DNA from: a virus
Strand: one strand, 5' to 3'
DNA: 21,211 bases
Virus record (IMG/VR): IMGVR_UViG_3300009285_004065
Coordinates: 1 to 21,211 of that record
Translations under genes and position numbers: made by a program
Shown here: positions 5,701 through 21,211 of the stretch, piece by piece
Position numbering within the stretch: the first letter of the stretch is position 1
Layout: each line of letters starts with the position of its first letter
Notes under the pieces: generated by a model
Seen by the model: only the letters and a program-made list of their open reading frames with translations
Databases searched by the model: none
What the model was told of the DNA's origin: nothing

Positions 5701-6066
5701 TCATTTTTTGAATCTGGGAAGCGGAGGCATGTCCTCTTCTTCCTCTTCCTCATCCTCCGGTAATCCTTCCGAGTCCTCTTCGGGAAGTACTTCCTCATCC
5801 TCTGGGATTAGTTTTTCGTCCTCGGCCATTGGCATACCCTCACCATCCATGGGCAGCTCCTCACCATCAACAGGCATTTCCTCTTCCATGCTCATTTCGG
5901 GCTCGTCCATACCCATTTCAGGTTCGTCCATACCCTTTTTGGGCTTTTCATCAGCGTAGATTTCCAGCTCGTCAAGCAGCTCATACGCTTCTTCGGGTAG
6001 TTGTTTGCGCAGTCGCATGAGCATTGCCTTGGGGTCTTCCATCATCGGTTTTTCCTTCATCATCAT
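5701..6066 (-). CDS. Acidic Met/Glu-rich protein of unknown function
   Basis: A 121-aa protein that starts ATGATGATG, its first ATG overlapping the stop of the upstream 38-aa gene (ATGA). Residues 1-40 form a charged helical segment (MLMRLRKQLPEEAYELLDELE). The rest is low complexity, dominated by Glu, Asp, Met and Pro, and ends in a run of Glu and a short basic tail (LPRFKK). Two adjacent 21-bp repeats encode MDEPEMG-type heptads. No family is recognised. It lies in the tail gene block, 9 nt before the adaptor gene, so it is co-expressed with virion genes. It could be a chaperone or scaffold-like factor for tail assembly, or a minor internal protein, but nothing in the sequence decides this. 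Confidence 0.7.
   Translation of the reverse strand: MMMKEKPMMEDPKAMLMRLRKQLPEEAYELLDELEIYADEKPKKGMDEPEMGMDEPEMSMEEEMPVDGEELPMDGEGMPMAEDEKLIPEDEEVLPEEDSEGLPEDEEEEEEDMPPLPRFKK
5893..5934. repeat. Two 21-bp tandem repeats inside the acidic gene
   Basis: Two in-frame 21-bp units (5893-5913 and 5914-5934) differ at 2 positions. Each encodes a heptad of the form M-[GS]-M-D-E-P-E read on the minus strand. They keep the frame, so copy number could change without breaking the gene. Confidence 0.75.
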
Positions 6067-13729: not shown

Positions 13730-15643
13730 TTACATGGAGGGCGCTTGGGGAGGCGGTTGCGCAGGTTGCTGCTGGGCAGCAGCTTCCTTGGTCAACGCTT
13801 CGCGGCGTTCCATCATGTGTTGTTCGATGAGCTGCTGTAGCTTTTCGTCTAACGAATCAAACTCTGGCGTCATGTAGTAATAACGACAGTAGTCATACAT
13901 ATTGATATGATCTTCGAACTCACGCGGGGCAACGTAGCTTCTGACACCATACTCATCCCAACGCGAGATCATCTGATCAAAAATCTTCTGTTGCTTGGCA
14001 TGGGCCAACTTCACCCGGTCGAACATGGACTCATCAAAGATGTCAAGGCCCCACTCGCGGGCAACTGCGCCGTAATCAAATCCTGGGATCTTCTCCAGGA
14101 ACGGGGCAAGCTGCATGATCTCTTGTCGCTTTGTCTGGGGGTCCAACGAGAACGACCTACCATACTGGGCCTCAAGGTCCCACCCACCCTTGAAGGATGC
14201 ACCACGAAGATGCCGGATATCCCAGGCCCCGTCTTCCCCGACAACCTTGACCTGCTTTTCGAACTTCCACTCATGTACTGCCAGTGACAGTAGGTATCGA
14301 TACAAATTCTGGATAGACTTGGTGTACTTGTTGTACAGCCTACGGCGCACCATGTTGCCGGACTCGATGGAACGATCCATCGTAAAACTTGAAGTCTCGC
14401 GAGTCATCTGCCCGGTCATGGCATCGTTCATACCCGCAAGGCCCTTCTGGCCCTCGGTCAACTGCTGCCGAATCCGCACTGAGTCAGGCATCGTTGACGG
14501 CGGAGCAAGATACTGAATACCAGAGAGTCCTGGACGGTTCTTAATCTGTATGATGTCAACCGTCGAATCGGTGACCGCCTCGTCATCAATCTCCGCGTCA
14601 CCATCTACCAGTAGGCGCACGATGTTGTGGACAGCCACGTTGGCAAGATCTTGCGTATCTAATGAAGACAAGATCTCTTGGATGGGAGATAGATACTCAA
14701 TGATGGACTTCCCGTACAACTCGTCTTCGATGTCAATGTCAGTCAGAATATCAAGTCCAAGCTGGGCATCTGGATTAAGATTTTCGCCGAATTCTAAAAT
14801 GTACCCATCGGCCAGGCGATAGCATCGTCTGCCACGCATCCCATTGATCGCTGCTCCCTTTTCGAGATACAGGATGATATCAACGGTATTGTCTTCTTCC
14901 TTGTCGCTCGTGGACCAGAAATTAAACTTCCATTTAGACCGGGATGAAGAACCTGCCTGAAGTTTCTCGGCGTGCTCTGGCCAACGAAGAATCGCTTCCT
15001 CCTTGGTCATTTTGAGCAGCTCAAAGAAATGATCCAGCTCGTCAAGGTTCTTAGCATTGGGACTAAGCCAGATGTCCCAGGTGGACGGGGAGTATACGCG
15101 AATGTCCCCTTCCATCCAGATGCAATCACCCTCAACACGAATCGGATCACCAAGGGTCGAATCAAACAGGGAGCGTAGATACCCAGTACCCTTGGTCAGT
15201 GTTTTTAAATTACGCTCGTCAACCCGCTCTTGAATGTTGTATTGGTTTCGAAGGAAGTTCTTGACATGGTTCGCATCGCTGGCAGCAGCCTTGTCCGCGA
15301 TTGTCTTGCTGTATGGCTTGACTACCACATCCGGGGGATTAGCTGACATGAGCGAGTGATTGTAGCGGATATACTGGAATATGTAGTTTACCGCGATGTT
15401 GTCAACGCCCTGCTCGCCCTCGTCCTGTGCCGCCCGCTCGAGATCCTCAATGCTGATGTTGCCGTTCTGCGGCTGCACACCAAGGGCCGTGTAAAACGCC
15501 TGCTCATTGAGTGACCACTGCTGCTCAAAACGCATGCGATCCCGCTTGGCCCGCTGCCAACGTTCCTCAACGTTCTTTTCAAACTCAGGTTTACCCCAAG
15601 ATTGAATCTTTAATGGTGCGCACAGAGCCTCGGATTCACTCAT
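13730..15643 (-). CDS. Portal protein
   Basis: A 637-aa protein. The ATG overlaps the stop of the small membrane protein gene (ATGA), pointing to coupled translation. Portal traits: an N-terminal helical part (VEERWQRAKRDRMRFEQQW), IFQYIRYNHSLMSANPPDVVVKP at residues 88-110 (the usual segment in which the chain reports Asn-Pro-Pro), a GTGYLRSLFD stretch (152-161), a wing and stem region, then a long helical C-terminal part and a Gln/Pro-rich tail (QQQPAQPPPQAPSM). The length matches long podoviral portals (P22 gp1 is 725 aa, T7 gp8 536 aa). It forms the dodecameric ring at the DNA entry vertex and docks the terminase. Gene order TerL, portal, scaffold, coat supports the call. Confidence 0.92.
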   Translation of the reverse strand: MSESEALCAPLKIQSWGKPEFEKNVEERWQRAKRDRMRFEQQWSLNEQAFYTALGVQPQNGNISIEDLERAAQDEGEQGVDNIAVNYIFQYIRYNHSLMSANPPDVVVKPYSKTIADKAAASDANHVKNFLRNQYNIQERVDERNLKTLTKGTGYLRSLFDSTLGDPIRVEGDCIWMEGDIRVYSPSTWDIWLSPNAKNLDELDHFFELLKMTKEEAILRWPEHAEKLQAGSSSRSKWKFNFWSTSDKEEDNTVDIILYLEKGAAINGMRGRRCYRLADGYILEFGENLNPDAQLGLDILTDIDIEDELYGKSIIEYLSPIQEILSSLDTQDLANVAVHNIVRLLVDGDAEIDDEAVTDSTVDIIQIKNRPGLSGIQYLAPPSTMPDSVRIRQQLTEGQKGLAGMNDAMTGQMTRETSSFTMDRSIESGNMVRRRLYNKYTKSIQNLYRYLLSLAVHEWKFEKQVKVVGEDGAWDIRHLRGASFKGGWDLEAQYGRSFSLDPQTKRQEIMQLAPFLEKIPGFDYGAVAREWGLDIFDESMFDRVKLAHAKQQKIFDQMISRWDEYGVRSYVAPREFEDHINMYDYCRYYYMTPEFDSLDEKLQQLIEQHMMERREALTKEAAAQQQPAQPPPQAPSM

Positions 15644-15828
15644 TTACCGGGCCTCCGACCTGACCGTAAGATATTCCGATATCGGTACCTGGCCATGTAC
15701 ATCAGCTTTGCCAACCGGGTGGACGCCTCTTGCTGCCGTTTCGCCGCAGCAATCATCCCGAGCATTATCAGCCCATTGAACGTGAACAACATGCACAGTG
15801 CATATGAGATGAACAGTATGTGTTCCAC
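15640..15828 (-). CDS. Small single-pass membrane protein
   Basis: A 62-aa protein that starts with GTG at 15828, with GGGG 6 nt upstream, just 3 nt after the large terminase stop. It ends in an ATGA overlap with the portal start. Residues about 4-28 are hydrophobic (ILFISYALCMLFTFNGLIML); the rest is very basic and helical (RYRYRNILRSGRRPGK), predicting a cytoplasmic tail. Its close packing between terminase and portal argues that it is a real gene. No family is recognised. A holin or membrane-docking role for assembly would fit, but neither is shown. Confidence 0.65.
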   Translation of the reverse strand: MEHILFISYALCMLFTFNGLIMLGMIAAAKRQQEASTRLAKLMYMARYRYRNILRSGRRPGK

Positions 15829-15831
15829 CGA

Positions 15832-17334
15832 CTACCCCGTCCTTCGCATGACACGAATACCAAGCCTTGACTGGTATTTGCTTGCTCGTACCAGCTTCAG
15901 CTTTCGTGCCTTGGCTTCTTTTTTCTTGCGGTTGTTGTTTGCCGCCCGGAGCAACATGTTGAACGTCATGATCTCAGACTGCGGTGTCCACTTGGGTTTC
16001 ATGTCCACGAAATATTGGAGCCCGTCCAGCAGGTGGAACATCTTGGAGTTGTGAATCGCACCGGGATTGGTCTCAGACCACCGTGCGGTTTCAATCTCCC
16101 CCTCAAGCTCCTCGCATCCATCTGGGACGAGGTAAAGCCACTGATCCAAGAAGGCATTCGTCACACCCTTGATCAGCTCGTTCTTGCGATCCTTTTTGTT
16201 GGGGCTGATGTAGTTACGTTGCCATCGATCTTTCCTGGCTTCTTTGATGAACCAGGTTTCATGCGGATCGCAGATGCGGCAGTGAATGCTGACACACCCG
16301 GTTTCTTTCTCGATCTCTTCGAGCAGCGTTGAGGCAGCCTCTCCTGGGATGTACTTCGCCTTGATGATGTACCAAATGCCACGCTGGTCATTGGGGTCTT
16401 CAGCCAGGAGGAGATACCCAACCTTCCCAGATGCAGCGGGGTCTAGGACCTCGGCGTGTCTCCACGAGCTGCTGTATCCCTCGGGGTATTTTTTGTGCAG
16501 CACGGGGTCGTAGATACCGTAGACGTACTCTTCCTCGTCAAGCCACCCACCCTCAAGTACCGCCCTCTTTGTTTTCTCGCGCACCTCGATAGGAAGTGCG
16601 TTCAGGCGGTCCATGATCTTCTTTTTCTTTTTCTCATCGTAGACCGGGTTGTCAAAGGCATTGAAGACGTAGAACTTCTTGTCATCAAACTCTGACTTAA
16701 TGAACTTCTTAACCCGGGGCGCTGGCTTTTTGGCTGTGTACGTGTACAGCACCAGGCCATCTTTCGCCTGGACTCTGCGGTCAGCTTCTTCGTACAGCGG
16801 GAGGTAGGAGCACAGCTCATCAATCCAAACCAACTCTGCATCAAATGACTGGATGCGCTTGGTACATCCCTTGGGTTCTTCATATGAAAAGAAGTAGATC
16901 TTTGATTTGCCAGCGAGTGGTCCGCACCCGACAATCGAGTACAGCATCTGCGACTGCCGGACCTCGCGGTATGTACCGGGCTCCAGGAAGGGCTTAATCC
17001 GTTTCTCCCAGTGCTCCTCGGCATGCTTACTGGTCTGTGACAGAACAAGGATGGTGACCGTGTTGGGCCACTTGGTAGCGATGTCAAGGTACGGGTGTTC
17101 TCTCTTGAAGAAGAAGGCGCAAGTCCTTGATCCTGCTAGAGATTTGCCAGACTGATTTCCCCCTTCAACCACTTGCGTAGTGCTCAGGGCCTGGTCTCTG
17201 AACAACTGTTCCTGAACCGGAGTTGGCCGGGAGTCGGGGTCAAGCGGGTTCATTGCATCGCGCAACTGCATTGATCGCAGCTTGCGCTCTGCCAACGCCC
17301 GTCTTTGGAGTTGTTCGACCTCGGAAAAATTCAA
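15832..17334 (-). CDS. terL: Terminase large subunit
   Basis: A 500-aa packaging motor. The ATPase has an adenine-side segment (TPVQEQLFRD, 38-47), a P-loop-like GGNQSGKS (58-65), Walker B LVWIDE (168-173) and a coupling motif around LYTYTAKK (196-203). The nuclease has LDPA (D298), ICDPHE (D356) and HLLDGLQY (D437), the three acidic positions of the RNase H-like fold. Together they cut and pump concatemeric DNA into the procapsid. The frame starts with TTG at 17334, right after the TAG of the upstream gene, with GGGG 5 nt before it. An ATG 63 nt further in (17271, Met22) has a poor ribosome site, so TTG is favoured but not certain; either choice keeps the whole motor. Confidence 0.95.
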   Translation of the reverse strand: MNFSEVEQLQRRALAERKLRSMQLRDAMNPLDPDSRPTPVQEQLFRDQALSTTQVVEGGNQSGKSLAGSRTCAFFFKREHPYLDIATKWPNTVTILVLSQTSKHAEEHWEKRIKPFLEPGTYREVRQSQMLYSIVGCGPLAGKSKIYFFSYEEPKGCTKRIQSFDAELVWIDELCSYLPLYEEADRRVQAKDGLVLYTYTAKKPAPRVKKFIKSEFDDKKFYVFNAFDNPVYDEKKKKKIMDRLNALPIEVREKTKRAVLEGGWLDEEEYVYGIYDPVLHKKYPEGYSSSWRHAEVLDPAASGKVGYLLLAEDPNDQRGIWYIIKAKYIPGEAASTLLEEIEKETGCVSIHCRICDPHETWFIKEARKDRWQRNYISPNKKDRKNELIKGVTNAFLDQWLYLVPDGCEELEGEIETARWSETNPGAIHNSKMFHLLDGLQYFVDMKPKWTPQSEIMTFNMLLRAANNNRKKKEAKARKLKLVRASKYQSRLGIRVMRRTG

Positions 17335-17733
17335 CTATGCCCCGATCGACCTAGCAAGGATGTACAACGAGAACGTACCAGCGGTATTTGATCCCTTGGT
17401 GTACACAATACGTGCGTACTCATACGCAAGAGACGTAGCTTTGATCGCATTTGTCGCAGCGGTGGCACTCGCCGTGGTGGCAATCGCCGAGCCCTCGTTA
17501 ATCCAATTGCTGCCATCATTGGATACCTGGAGCTGCCACGAACCATTTGTGTGCGTGCCGTCAACCCACACGATCTGCACCGAAACAGCGTCACGAGTCG
17601 GGATGGGAAAATATTTCGTGGTAGCCTTGCCCGCTTCAGCCAACTGAGGAAACTGATCAGTGGTATTCATCACCTCAGTAACGCACTTGATCCGTTGGAA
17701 ATCAAAGTTGCGCAACGAATTGGTTGTCGTCAT
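17335..17733 (-). CDS. Beta-rich protein, putative virion protein
   Basis: A 132-aa protein. ATG 17733 was preferred because GGAG lies 6 nt upstream; ATG 17736 is 3 nt from it and overlaps the metallopeptidase stop (ATGA). Residues about 50-130 contain a pattern shared by many phage structural beta-sandwich proteins: VSVQIVWVDGTHTNGSWQLQ, SNDGSNWINEG, then an Ala/Thr-rich loop and YARIVYTKGSNTAGTFSLYI. A decoration or minor capsid role is possible, as is another binding role. It is placed between the small-protein genes and terL, and its TAG is followed at once by the terL start. The family is not identified. Confidence 0.68.
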   Translation of the reverse strand: MTTTNSLRNFDFQRIKCVTEVMNTTDQFPQLAEAGKATTKYFPIPTRDAVSVQIVWVDGTHTNGSWQLQVSNDGSNWINEGSAIATTASATAATNAIKATSLAYEYARIVYTKGSNTAGTFSLYILARSIGA

Positions 17734-18032
17734 CATAATCTCCGTTGAAACTTCGGATTGAACTTGAGTAGCGGGAAAAAGTGTGTGTCCAAACAAGCGA
17801 GGATCATCTCAACATCACTGTTTGCGAACTTCACCGCGATGCCAGAGGCGTCAAGGGCCATGTGCACCATCTCGTGCATCAAGGTCAGCTCTCGCTGCCG
17901 TTGATTCTGCCGGGAATCAATGCAGATCTTTTTATCTGACCAGATTGATTCTCCTAGGTTGTTGTCATCCATCTCCCGCTGCGTAACCTTAAACGTGAAC
18001 CCGCATAGTGAAACTTTACGAGGTAACTGCAT
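17733..18032 (-). CDS. Small HExxH metallopeptidase-like protein
   Basis: A 99-aa protein. The ATG has GAGG 5 nt upstream, inside the end of the previous gene. HEMVH (residues 53-57), preceded by RELTLM, is a zinc-binding active-site motif. Glu75 in NSDVEMILACL is a candidate third ligand, at a spacing seen in small phage and ImmA-like metallopeptidases. The protein is just a minimal domain with no extra binding part. It lies between small terminase and terL and overlaps the next gene at ATGA, so it is made with packaging proteins. Possible targets are a scaffold, procapsid component or host repressor; the position does not decide. Without the fold being checked, a proteolytic role remains inference, though the motif is clear. 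Confidence 0.72.
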   Translation of the reverse strand: MQLPRKVSLCGFTFKVTQREMDDNNLGESIWSDKKICIDSRQNQRQRELTLMHEMVHMALDASGIAVKFANSDVEMILACLDTHFFPLLKFNPKFQRRL

Positions 18033-19486: not shown

Positions 19487-20884
19487 TTACCTCACCGGGA
19501 TGTAGGCCGCGATGAATTCCCGAGCAGCCTGGTAATGCTGTTGCTTGATCGACTTCCAAGTGATTTCCTTGCTGACCGACTTGATGAACCGGGCTTTCAG
19601 TTCCCGACGAAGCAGTCCAGAAACTTTGTGATCACCCTTTGGCCAGTACTCGTTCTTGCGCAGCCATGCACACCTGGCACCCATTTCTTTTTCCAAAATG
19701 ACTTGCTGGTCTTGACTGAGGATGCTATCCTCATGTGCACCAATCACGGTAGCCAGCTGCGCTTTAATGGTATTGATCTCTTTTTCCTGTTTCGCGATTG
19801 TCTTGACATGCGTATTCATGTCCGGGGCAGTTGTCTCTCTCAGCTGAGGAATGCTGGGTGCTGATGACAAAGCCGCTATCCGCTGCTCAATAGAATCGAG
19901 GCGCGCAGTGACATCATCTGAAATCAAACGCGACAAATCCTCCCGGAGTGCCTGTAGAATATTGGCTTGCCCTCGCGGCAGTGTTTGCTGCTTGACCGAC
20001 TCGGCAAGCCCTTGCGTACTGTTAATGAACATCTTCGCGTGGTGATGGTAATCCTTGCCCTCGCCCATGGTCAGTAGAAAGCAAACATGGGAAGGGATGT
20101 GGTACCCTTTAGTAGGACGTCCCCTACCTGAATTTCGCCCAGATTTGGGCGTTATAAAATAGTGTTCGTTTTCAATGAGATCGTACTTTTTAATCCTCCG
20201 CTGAATCCAATTGCGAAAACTGTCCTTGACTCCAAGGTATGCCCACACGTCACGCGCCGAGAAGTTACCGTCAGCATCTGGCCTGGGTGCGGTGGGCTGC
20301 GCGGGGATCGCCGGCTGCTGGATCATCGGTAGATTCGTACGAGCAGCAGGCTTTTTCTCCCTGGCTGTTACGCGCAGATACTTTGGATCAATGTTAGCCA
20401 TCTCAGCGCGAACTAAAGCATCTCGCTCGGCCATCTTAACCCGTTTTTTGTGTCCTGCGGCCACTGCTGCCGCATCCATGTGCTCCATGCGGGTACGGGC
20501 ACCCTCAGTCACACGAGTAAAATGACCGGGTTCTATGATGTAATAATCCACACCATGGCGCAGTCCACACTTCATCCGCATTGTATTGAACCACTTGTTG
20601 ACCGTGATATGATCAACTCCACCAACGATTCCCCTGATGTCCTTGAAGATCTCAACGACTGGGTAAATAAAGGGCGAAACAGGTGTCGCTGTCTCCTGTT
20701 GCACAGCAGCGTTCACTTGCTGATCGGCTGCTTCCCCTCGCTGCTCGGGTGCTTCTACTCCCTGTTCGATTGCTTCAACTCCCTGTTCGGATGCGTCCAC
20801 TCGCTGCTCGATTGCATCCATGTGCTGTTGTGCGTTTTCCCTGGAACCAAAGATCCAACTGCAGACTTCTCTGATCTCTTTCAT
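19487..20884 (-). CDS. AntA-type antirepressor with ORF6C-like C-terminus
   Basis: A 465-aa protein. The start is ATG 20884 (GGAG 8 nt upstream); an in-frame ATG at 21007 lies upstream of the promoter -35 and cannot be on its transcript. Residues 21-62: heptad repeats of the form [MV]-[DE]-A-x-E-Q-x. Residues 78-160 look like a degenerate AntA module (VNKWFNTMRMKCGLRHGVDY). Residues 207-288 are a clear AntA/AntB domain: NFSARDVWAYLGV, FRNWIQRRIKKYDLIENEHY, GRPTKGYHI. Residues 325-380 may be coiled coil. Residues 385-462 match the ORF6C pattern (SQDQQVILEKEMG; GLLRRELKARFIKSVSKEIT). Such proteins relieve phage repression by binding the repressor or operator. It is first in its operon. Length exceeds the usual 200-300 aa because of the extra modules. 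Confidence 0.85.
   Translation of the reverse strand: MKEIREVCSWIFGSRENAQQHMDAIEQRVDASEQGVEAIEQGVEAPEQRGEAADQQVNAAVQQETATPVSPFIYPVVEIFKDIRGIVGGVDHITVNKWFNTMRMKCGLRHGVDYYIIEPGHFTRVTEGARTRMEHMDAAAVAAGHKKRVKMAERDALVRAEMANIDPKYLRVTAREKKPAARTNLPMIQQPAIPAQPTAPRPDADGNFSARDVWAYLGVKDSFRNWIQRRIKKYDLIENEHYFITPKSGRNSGRGRPTKGYHIPSHVCFLLTMGEGKDYHHHAKMFINSTQGLAESVKQQTLPRGQANILQALREDLSRLISDDVTARLDSIEQRIAALSSAPSIPQLRETTAPDMNTHVKTIAKQEKEINTIKAQLATVIGAHEDSILSQDQQVILEKEMGARCAWLRKNEYWPKGDHKVSGLLRRELKARFIKSVSKEITWKSIKQQHYQAAREFIAAYIPVR
20717..20821. repeat. 21-bp tandem repeats in the antirepressor gene
   Basis: Five units of 21 bp (20717, 20738, 20759, 20780, 20801), plus a decayed sixth at 20696. Each encodes a heptad such as MDAIEQR or VEAIEQG. 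They keep the frame and form a regular a/d-like helix or a flexible linker ahead of the first DNA-binding-like module. Confidence 0.85.
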
Positions 20885-20899
20885 CGCCAAAACTCCAAC

Positions 20900-20962: not shown

Positions 20963-20991
20963 AATATAACCAACACCAATGCTCCTGTCAA
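20963..20991 (-). promoter_or_regulatory. Sigma70-like promoter of the antirepressor operon
   Basis: Minus strand: TTGACA (20986-20991), 17-bp spacer, TATATT (20963-20968). A near-consensus promoter. It places the transcript start near 20956, about 70 nt before ATG 20884, and so fixes the antirepressor start. Confidence 0.78.
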
Positions 20992-21211
20992 GGACATTAA
21001 GGGTCATGTCGCAACATTTTTATTTCACTCACGATTACCCATAGATACATCTAACTCCCAGGAGTCCCCCACAATCACATCAATGGGTTACGGAAAATCA
21101 CCGTTGGACAAAAATATTTTGCTGCCCAAAAAGTTGACACTGGGCGGTTTTTGCCACTACTCGGCTGATCACACCGGGGAATTCGAAAAAATTGCCTCGA
21201 CAGGACACAAA
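20992..21211. other. Right-edge region without an assigned gene
   Basis: No supported gene. It holds a stem (CTGCCCA 21122-21128 with TGGGCGG 21141-21147, 12-nt loop) followed by TTTTT on the plus strand, a possible terminator reading rightward. An open plus frame from ATG 21083 runs off the window (43 codons, no ribosome site). The final 12 bases repeat those at 18650-18661, next to the packaging promoter. The region could be a control area facing an unseen neighbour. Confidence 0.4.

Follow-up and report, generated by a model that had tools for sequence, protein, structure and literature searches.

Phage antirepressors evolve through module swapping, and the antirepressor-family gene described here raises the question of whether its product carries one AntA module or two. 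The window analysed was a whole virus record of 21,211 bases. A sequence-only reading had proposed that the 465-aa protein possesses a clear AntA domain, preceded by a segment with the same succession of residues that was taken to be a duplicated and diverged AntA module; the segment lies behind a heptad array, and an ORF6C end closes the protein. The features of the locus are collected in Table 1.

Table 1. Positions of the features of the antirepressor-family gene, its product and its surroundings
Feature	Position in window	Strand	Evidence
FmdB-like zinc-ribbon protein, 83 aa	19232..19483	-	Pfam PF09723, E 7.6e-10
Antirepressor-family gene, 465 aa	19487..20884	-	Open frame, translation, AntA match
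ORF6C-like C-terminal domain, residues 391-463	19496..19714	-	Own profile; three modelled helices
Second helical, coiled-coil-like stretch, residues 304-385	19730..19975	-	Modelled helices 304-340 and 353-385
AntA domain, residues 207-290	20015..20266	-	Pfam PF08346, E 1.2e-13; model pLDDT; closest solved folds
Pro/Ala-rich linker, residues 171-205	20270..20374	-	Translation; model confidence mostly low
Module 1, weakly AntA-like segment, residues 70-165	20390..20677	-	Profile scores, hhalign, model
Core of the AntA-like signal, residues 96-118 (W98, L108, D113, Y114)	20531..20599	-	Sub-segment score, profile columns 34-56
Heptad array, six seven-residue units, residues 22-63	20696..20821	-	Translation, DNA repeats, modelled helices
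GGAG Shine-Dalgarno-like site, 8 nt upstream of the ATG	20893..20896	-	Sequence read directly
Sigma-70-type promoter-like site upstream of the gene, TTGACA-17-TATATT, 11 of 12 matches	20963..20991	-	Motif scan

The gene and its surroundings

The start codon of the 465-aa frame is the ATG at 20884 on the minus strand, whilst a longer alternative frame of 506 aa would start at 21007. The shorter version was preferred because a promoter-like site lies between the two starts, and the GGAG site also supports this choice. Four promoter-like sites were found in 3.9 kb, compared with a mean of 3.3 in shuffled sequences, the one upstream of the gene being the best match. The antirepressor-family gene of 465 codons is real and has promoter-like and Shine-Dalgarno sites of its own. 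A 16-nt inverted repeat (88 % identity) has one arm inside the gene (20631-20646), whilst the other (20988-21003) runs into the promoter-like site at its -35 end; this pairing may be due to chance.

The frame for the FmdB-like zinc-ribbon protein begins 3 bases past the antirepressor-family stop codon. Further products of this strand include a small M78-like peptidase, a terminase, a P22/SU10-like portal and an SU10-like adaptor. The M78/IrrE-like metallopeptidase (99 aa, 17733-18032) lies near the terminase gene, and another locus (L003) has a 99-aa HExxH protein at the corresponding place. The terminase and portal (13730-17334) shared 41-47 % identity with their counterparts on two short IMG/VR contigs. 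No other near relatives came up in a terminase-based search for sister phages, which suggests a sparsely sampled phage lineage; neither of these contigs shows the antirepressor-family gene. Several overlapping tandem repeats of 21-24 bp were seen at 5738-5945 in a 121-aa frame. A perfect LexA-like 16-mer lies at 16734-16749, inside the terminase gene; it was rejected as a LexA box, near-matches being in total fewer than in shuffled sequences. No Rfam families or tRNAs were found in the window, and no repressor, integrase or other lysogeny gene was recognised within its 21,211 bases. The phage may be virulent, and the record is perhaps a fragment of its genome.

AntA domain, helical stretches and C-terminus

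The Pfam AntA match covered residues 209-263 with 51.9 bits, against a curated cut-off of 27 bits (46.8 bits in a six-frame search), and our own AntA profile extended the domain over residues 208-288. The columns found to be invariant in 11 AntA sequences (L217, F223, W226 and M273) were all present, and the PHROG antirepressor families were concordant (best E 5.6e-15). In an AlphaFold model based on a 46-row alignment, ten-residue blocks over residues 201-290 had pLDDT values of 78-97. The AntA domain that had been read at residues 207-288 was therefore borne out by library match, profile and model.

When the modelled AntA part was re-aligned to 342 solved chains, the best fold was that of the MBP1 DNA-binding domain (1bm8; Z 7.2, rmsd 2.5 over 77 residues), with further matches to PCG2 in a DNA complex (4ux5; Z 6.4) and Bqt4 (Z 5.5-5.7). 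A human Ski-like fragment (Z 6.7), granulovirus Orf22 (Z 6.6) and DdrC (Z 5.0-5.2) matched as well, and all of these Z values are modest. MBP1, PCG2 and Bqt4, which we take to be folds of the APSES/KilA-N type, fit a kinship of these phage domains with fungal APSES domains that Iyer and colleagues reportedly proposed in 2002. By computation, the AntA domain has a predicted fold that is APSES/KilA-N-like. Sequence searches of solved structures gave nothing useful. The top rows of a Foldseek search in BFVD included antirepressor and repressor-domain proteins (11 of 261 matches at E ≤ 0.001); as these rows give no aligned ranges, they have no bearing on the segment ahead of the AntA domain.

Computation showed two helical stretches in the protein. 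The N-terminal one is the heptad array, for which the earlier description was confirmed: it is encoded by in-register 21-bp repeats, with five copies of a 52-nt reference spaced by 21 nt at 20694-20829, and helices were modelled at residues 15-43 and 51-65 (same 46-row alignment). The other stretch connects the AntA domain to the C-terminal end.

The proposed ORF6C end was upheld by our own profile and by a good model, whilst Pfam PF10552 (cut-off 22 bits) returned no match at E ≤ 10 either in the window or with C-terminal pieces. An initial ORF6C profile from three sequences also gave no match. The working profile comprised 70 rows, drawn from the AntA-ORF6C proteins of phages Tuc2009 and ul36 and from IMG/VR relatives; residues 351-465 scored 17.7 bits against it (none of 3000 shuffles) and the core, residues 386-465, scored 12.5 bits (none of 5000 shuffles). 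Only one of 1260 windows from other frames reached 17.7 bits, and it lies in a locus (L094) that the Pfam ORF6C model had also picked, at 18.5 bits, which is under its cut-off. Helices were modelled at 391-411, 419-436 and 448-460, with pLDDT values of 77-95 by ten-residue blocks. Since the C-terminus was recognised by our own profile and not by PF10552, it is labelled ORF6C-like and is not filed as a member of that family.

The segment ahead of the AntA domain

In the segment here called module 1, W98 and Y114 are 16 residues apart, the same gapless spacing as that between W226 and Y242 in the AntA domain, and D113-Y114 agrees with the AntA consensus D-Y. Against AntA profiles, module 1 scored 1.6 bits (11 sequences), 4.1 bits (78 sequences; reached by 4 of 2000 shuffles), 6.4 bits (49 non-redundant sequences; 4 of 5000) and 6.7 bits (228 rows; none of 3000 and, on rerunning, 2 of 2000), the true significance being below these fractions because the segment had been picked by eye, though a single hypothesis was tested. 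Controls with real proteins used 110-residue windows from other frames of the fetched loci, in which the module 1 score was reached by 3 of 559 windows (78 sequences), 2 of 1095 (49 sequences) and 3 of 1783 (228 rows). Pfam assigns KilAC, and weakly pRha, to the pair of ORFs from which the last three windows came; without the frames that matched our own KilAC or Bro-N profiles, none of 1744 windows reached 6.7 bits and the best scored 5.8 bits. Among the other genes of the 21,211-base window, none of 238 windows exceeded 1.7 bits with the AntA profile. The scores point to a weak but AntA-specific similarity in module 1, which rises with the profile.

Residues 66-121 alone scored 3.7 bits with the AntA profile (3 of 2000 shuffles), whereas residues 121-175 alone gave no signal (787 of 2000 shuffles). 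The profile alignment spanned N96-R154 and left the first 33 AntA columns unaligned; hhalign compared module 1 with AntA at P 0.0047 and a probability of 7.5 %. The succession of residues that had been read in the N-terminal segment could be followed for about 23 residues (96-118), but the basic helix said to come after it found no support on its own. A profile search of module 1, which had been suggested as a check, likewise gave a divided answer, as the home-made AntA profile scored weakly above chance and Pfam AntA produced no row on any piece of module 1, leaving a single AntA stretch in the protein.

No family in Pfam, PHROGs or NCBIfam accounted for the segment. Pfam gave no Bro-N, KilAC, KilA-N or P22_AR_N row on module 1, and with residues 66-175 only chance-level rows were obtained from Pfam, PHROGs and NCBIfam (Abi_C, E 0.29; DcuR, E 0.11). 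Matches to pRha (PF09669) and guanylate kinase (PF00625) were absent from the window at E ≤ 10. Module 1 also scored nothing with home-made profiles of Bro-N (12 rows), KilAC (98 rows), KilA-N and P22_AR_N (one sequence each); an iteration seeded with pRha drew in AntA (279 rows) and for this reason was not used as a separate pRha test.

Structure prediction, the other suggested check, modelled only the AntA and ORF6C-like parts well and not module 1, where no ten-residue block between 71 and 140 reached a pLDDT of 60 (AlphaFold, 46-row alignment). The low-confidence model consisted of two helices followed by one long helix, 128-163, with no strand; AntA, with the fold order helix, helix, hairpin, helices, has a strand and turn where this long helix is placed. 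A single-sequence model (mean pLDDT 40.2, unusable) put helices at 74-87 and 92-105 ahead of D113-Y114, as the AntA domain has at 210-217 and 221-233, with pLDDT near 30.

Relatives of module 1 were sought widely. Searches with tblastn yielded only three chance rows in phages (virion proteins of Pseudomonas phages, E 8-9) and none in plasmids. Scanning IMG/VR for peptide patterns of the whole protein and of module 1, and GTDB genomes for those of module 1, turned up no relatives; DNA patterns for W-F-x-x-M...D-Y gave one match in IMG/VR, with frames unlike the query, and none in a second scan. Searches of 8 genomes and then of 369 and 385 found no relatives either: the latter 754 genomes returned nine rows at E ≤ 0.01 per genome, compared with about 7.5 expected by chance, and the eight that were read comprised two guanylate kinases, recognised by eye, and frames without regulatory likeness. 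The guanylate kinase G-x-D-Y-Y stretch scored 20.2 bits against module 1 with a two-sequence profile (none of 3000 shuffles), above the AntA score. Identity of module 1 with guanylate kinase was rejected, as the match was post hoc from a very large search and Pfam PF00625 gave no match. It follows from this match that the G-V-D-Y-Y motif is not diagnostic and that chance can go far with module 1.

Architecture, rival readings and role

AntA proteins were sampled as 273 frames (224 unique) from 241 loci, which is not a census because the ranking followed similarity to the query or to the Tuc2009 protein. None of the 224 unique frames carried two full AntA domains. The four frames with two AntA hits (L017:2941-3528, L019:1866-2456, L233:2941-3531 and L250:2878-3702) contained overlapping pieces of a single domain, and in L017 a short AntA piece (E-N-x-D-F-V-S-F-T...V-K-P) is repeated within the domain. 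Four AntA frames stand in tandem on one viral contig (L020:2460-5223), a layout common to L023, L026, L027 and L054. More than 60 residues preceded AntA in eight frames, including the query. The other seven were read: one is a clear two-module protein, from Thiocystis minor, the front of L216 was masked, and the remaining five look like upstream read-through or, in L244, an N-terminal extension. The PHROG profiles phrog_63 and phrog_373 place AntA after 100-130 positions. The earlier statement that antirepressors usually have one such module agrees with the sample as far as two full AntA domains are concerned, but P22_AR_N ahead of AntA does occur.

This is the case in the Thiocystis minor protein (L262:1590-3152; P22_AR_N 75-184, AntA 252-320), which provides a precedent for an extra module before AntA. 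It resembles the query in having an extra N-terminal module and a Pro-rich linker, but its first module is a clear P22_AR_N whereas module 1 matches no family. The proteins of Lactococcus phages Tuc2009 and ul36 resemble the query in combining AntA, a spacer and a full ORF6C in one frame, and the AntA, helical spacer and ORF6C-like end of the query are therefore ordinary. These proteins have only 238-248 aa, with AntA near the N-terminus; they have neither the heptad array nor module 1, and their ORF6C passes the Pfam cut-off, unlike the ORF6C-like end of the query. Antirepressors of the AntA/AntB type (PF08346; AntB of phage Aaphi23) share the invariant L, F, W and M columns, although in most of those sampled the domain lies close to the extreme N-terminus. 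In the literature, antirepressors are described as having two domains and interacting with the repressor (PMC2701414), the domain-swapping Bro network (Bro-N, KilA-N, ORF6N, pRha, P22_AR, ANT and AntA) is said to include AntA among its exchangeable modules, as in the query (PMC10111431), and the immA operon of the telomere phage N15 is reported to carry antA, icd and antB (PMC4488713). Module 1 is none of the named Bro-network modules at library thresholds. A fused AntA pair was not described in the passages of these three papers found by a limited literature search.

What, then, is module 1? The duplicated and diverged AntA module of the sequence-only reading retains a weak AntA-specific profile score, set against the lack of a library match and a model without strands. 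That module 1 represents a full second copy of the AntA domain is possible, but we regard it as unlikely; such a double-AntA protein, perhaps derived from a fusion of tandem antA-like genes, could bridge two sites or hold repressor and DNA at once. The gapless W...Y spacing and the D-Y match speak for it, as do the alignment over residues 96-154, with G-x-R and K-x-x-x-M-x-E-R correspondences, and the tandem AntA genes of phages (four at L020), which would be raw material for fusion. Against it stand the silence of residues 121-175 on their own, the unaligned first AntA columns, the strandless model and the sampled frames, in which two full domains never occurred. Equally improbable is the elaboration in which two AntA-like winged-helix modules of different specificity, held by the N-terminal and central coiled coils, would allow one oligomer to grip repressor and operator, or two operators, simultaneously.

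The opposite view, that module 1 is unrelated to AntA, a helical segment peculiar to this lineage which separates the coiled coil from the linker, its likeness reflecting chance and selection by eye, falls somewhat short of an even chance. It is favoured by the absence of any family match, by the phage, plasmid, IMG/VR and GTDB genome scans, which gave no relative, by the chance-level rows in the 754 sampled genomes, by the long modelled helix and by the even better match to guanylate kinase after a large search. The shuffle and real-protein controls, made for one prior hypothesis, AntA, argue against it. On balance we lean slightly towards module 1 holding a diverged relative of AntA or of the winged-helix domains akin to it, which would probably amount to a short helix-turn-strand element and fall short of a full second AntA domain. 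The best unrelated windows, which come close to module 1 in score (5.8 against 6.7 bits), the silent second half and the long modelled helix count against this reading.

Our overall explanation, which includes this reading of module 1 and to which we give a probability of roughly one half, is that the protein is a phage regulator of the Bro-network antirepressor type, built on AntA and ORF6C-like parts, with a long N-terminal extension. The helical stretches would assemble the protein into an oligomer, and the AntA domain would contact either DNA or a repressor bound to it. Partner binding or multimerisation may be the task of the ORF6C-like end. The N-terminal extension, a heptad coiled coil followed by module 1, would offer an extra contact surface, joined to the AntA domain through the flexible Pro/Ala linker. 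The net effect would be that repression is lifted or phage genes are otherwise switched. Its family leads one to expect a protein that opposes a repressor or works at operators; the term antirepressor is taken from the family, given that no repressor or integrase was recognised in the window. As for its role, which is a separate question, the protein might not be an antirepressor; in this tentative alternative, which we rate clearly below even odds, it would regulate transcription directly or bind DNA in a virulent phage that has kept the AntA-ORF6C layout. The structures closest to the AntA model include DNA-binding APSES domains and DdrC, and head and packaging genes of the SU10/P22-portal kind are found with no recognised lysogeny gene, but the known part of the phage is 21 kb only and the family is named for antirepression.

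The unusual part of the protein is its front half, the heptads and module 1, whilst the layout of AntA, spacer and ORF6C-like end is already familiar. The extra module would leave the general picture of antirepressor evolution unchanged. Heptads and an extra, possibly AntA-derived module ahead of AntA-ORF6C would represent an added architecture in the antirepressor repertoire, and module 1 would offer a testable case of module gain or decay.
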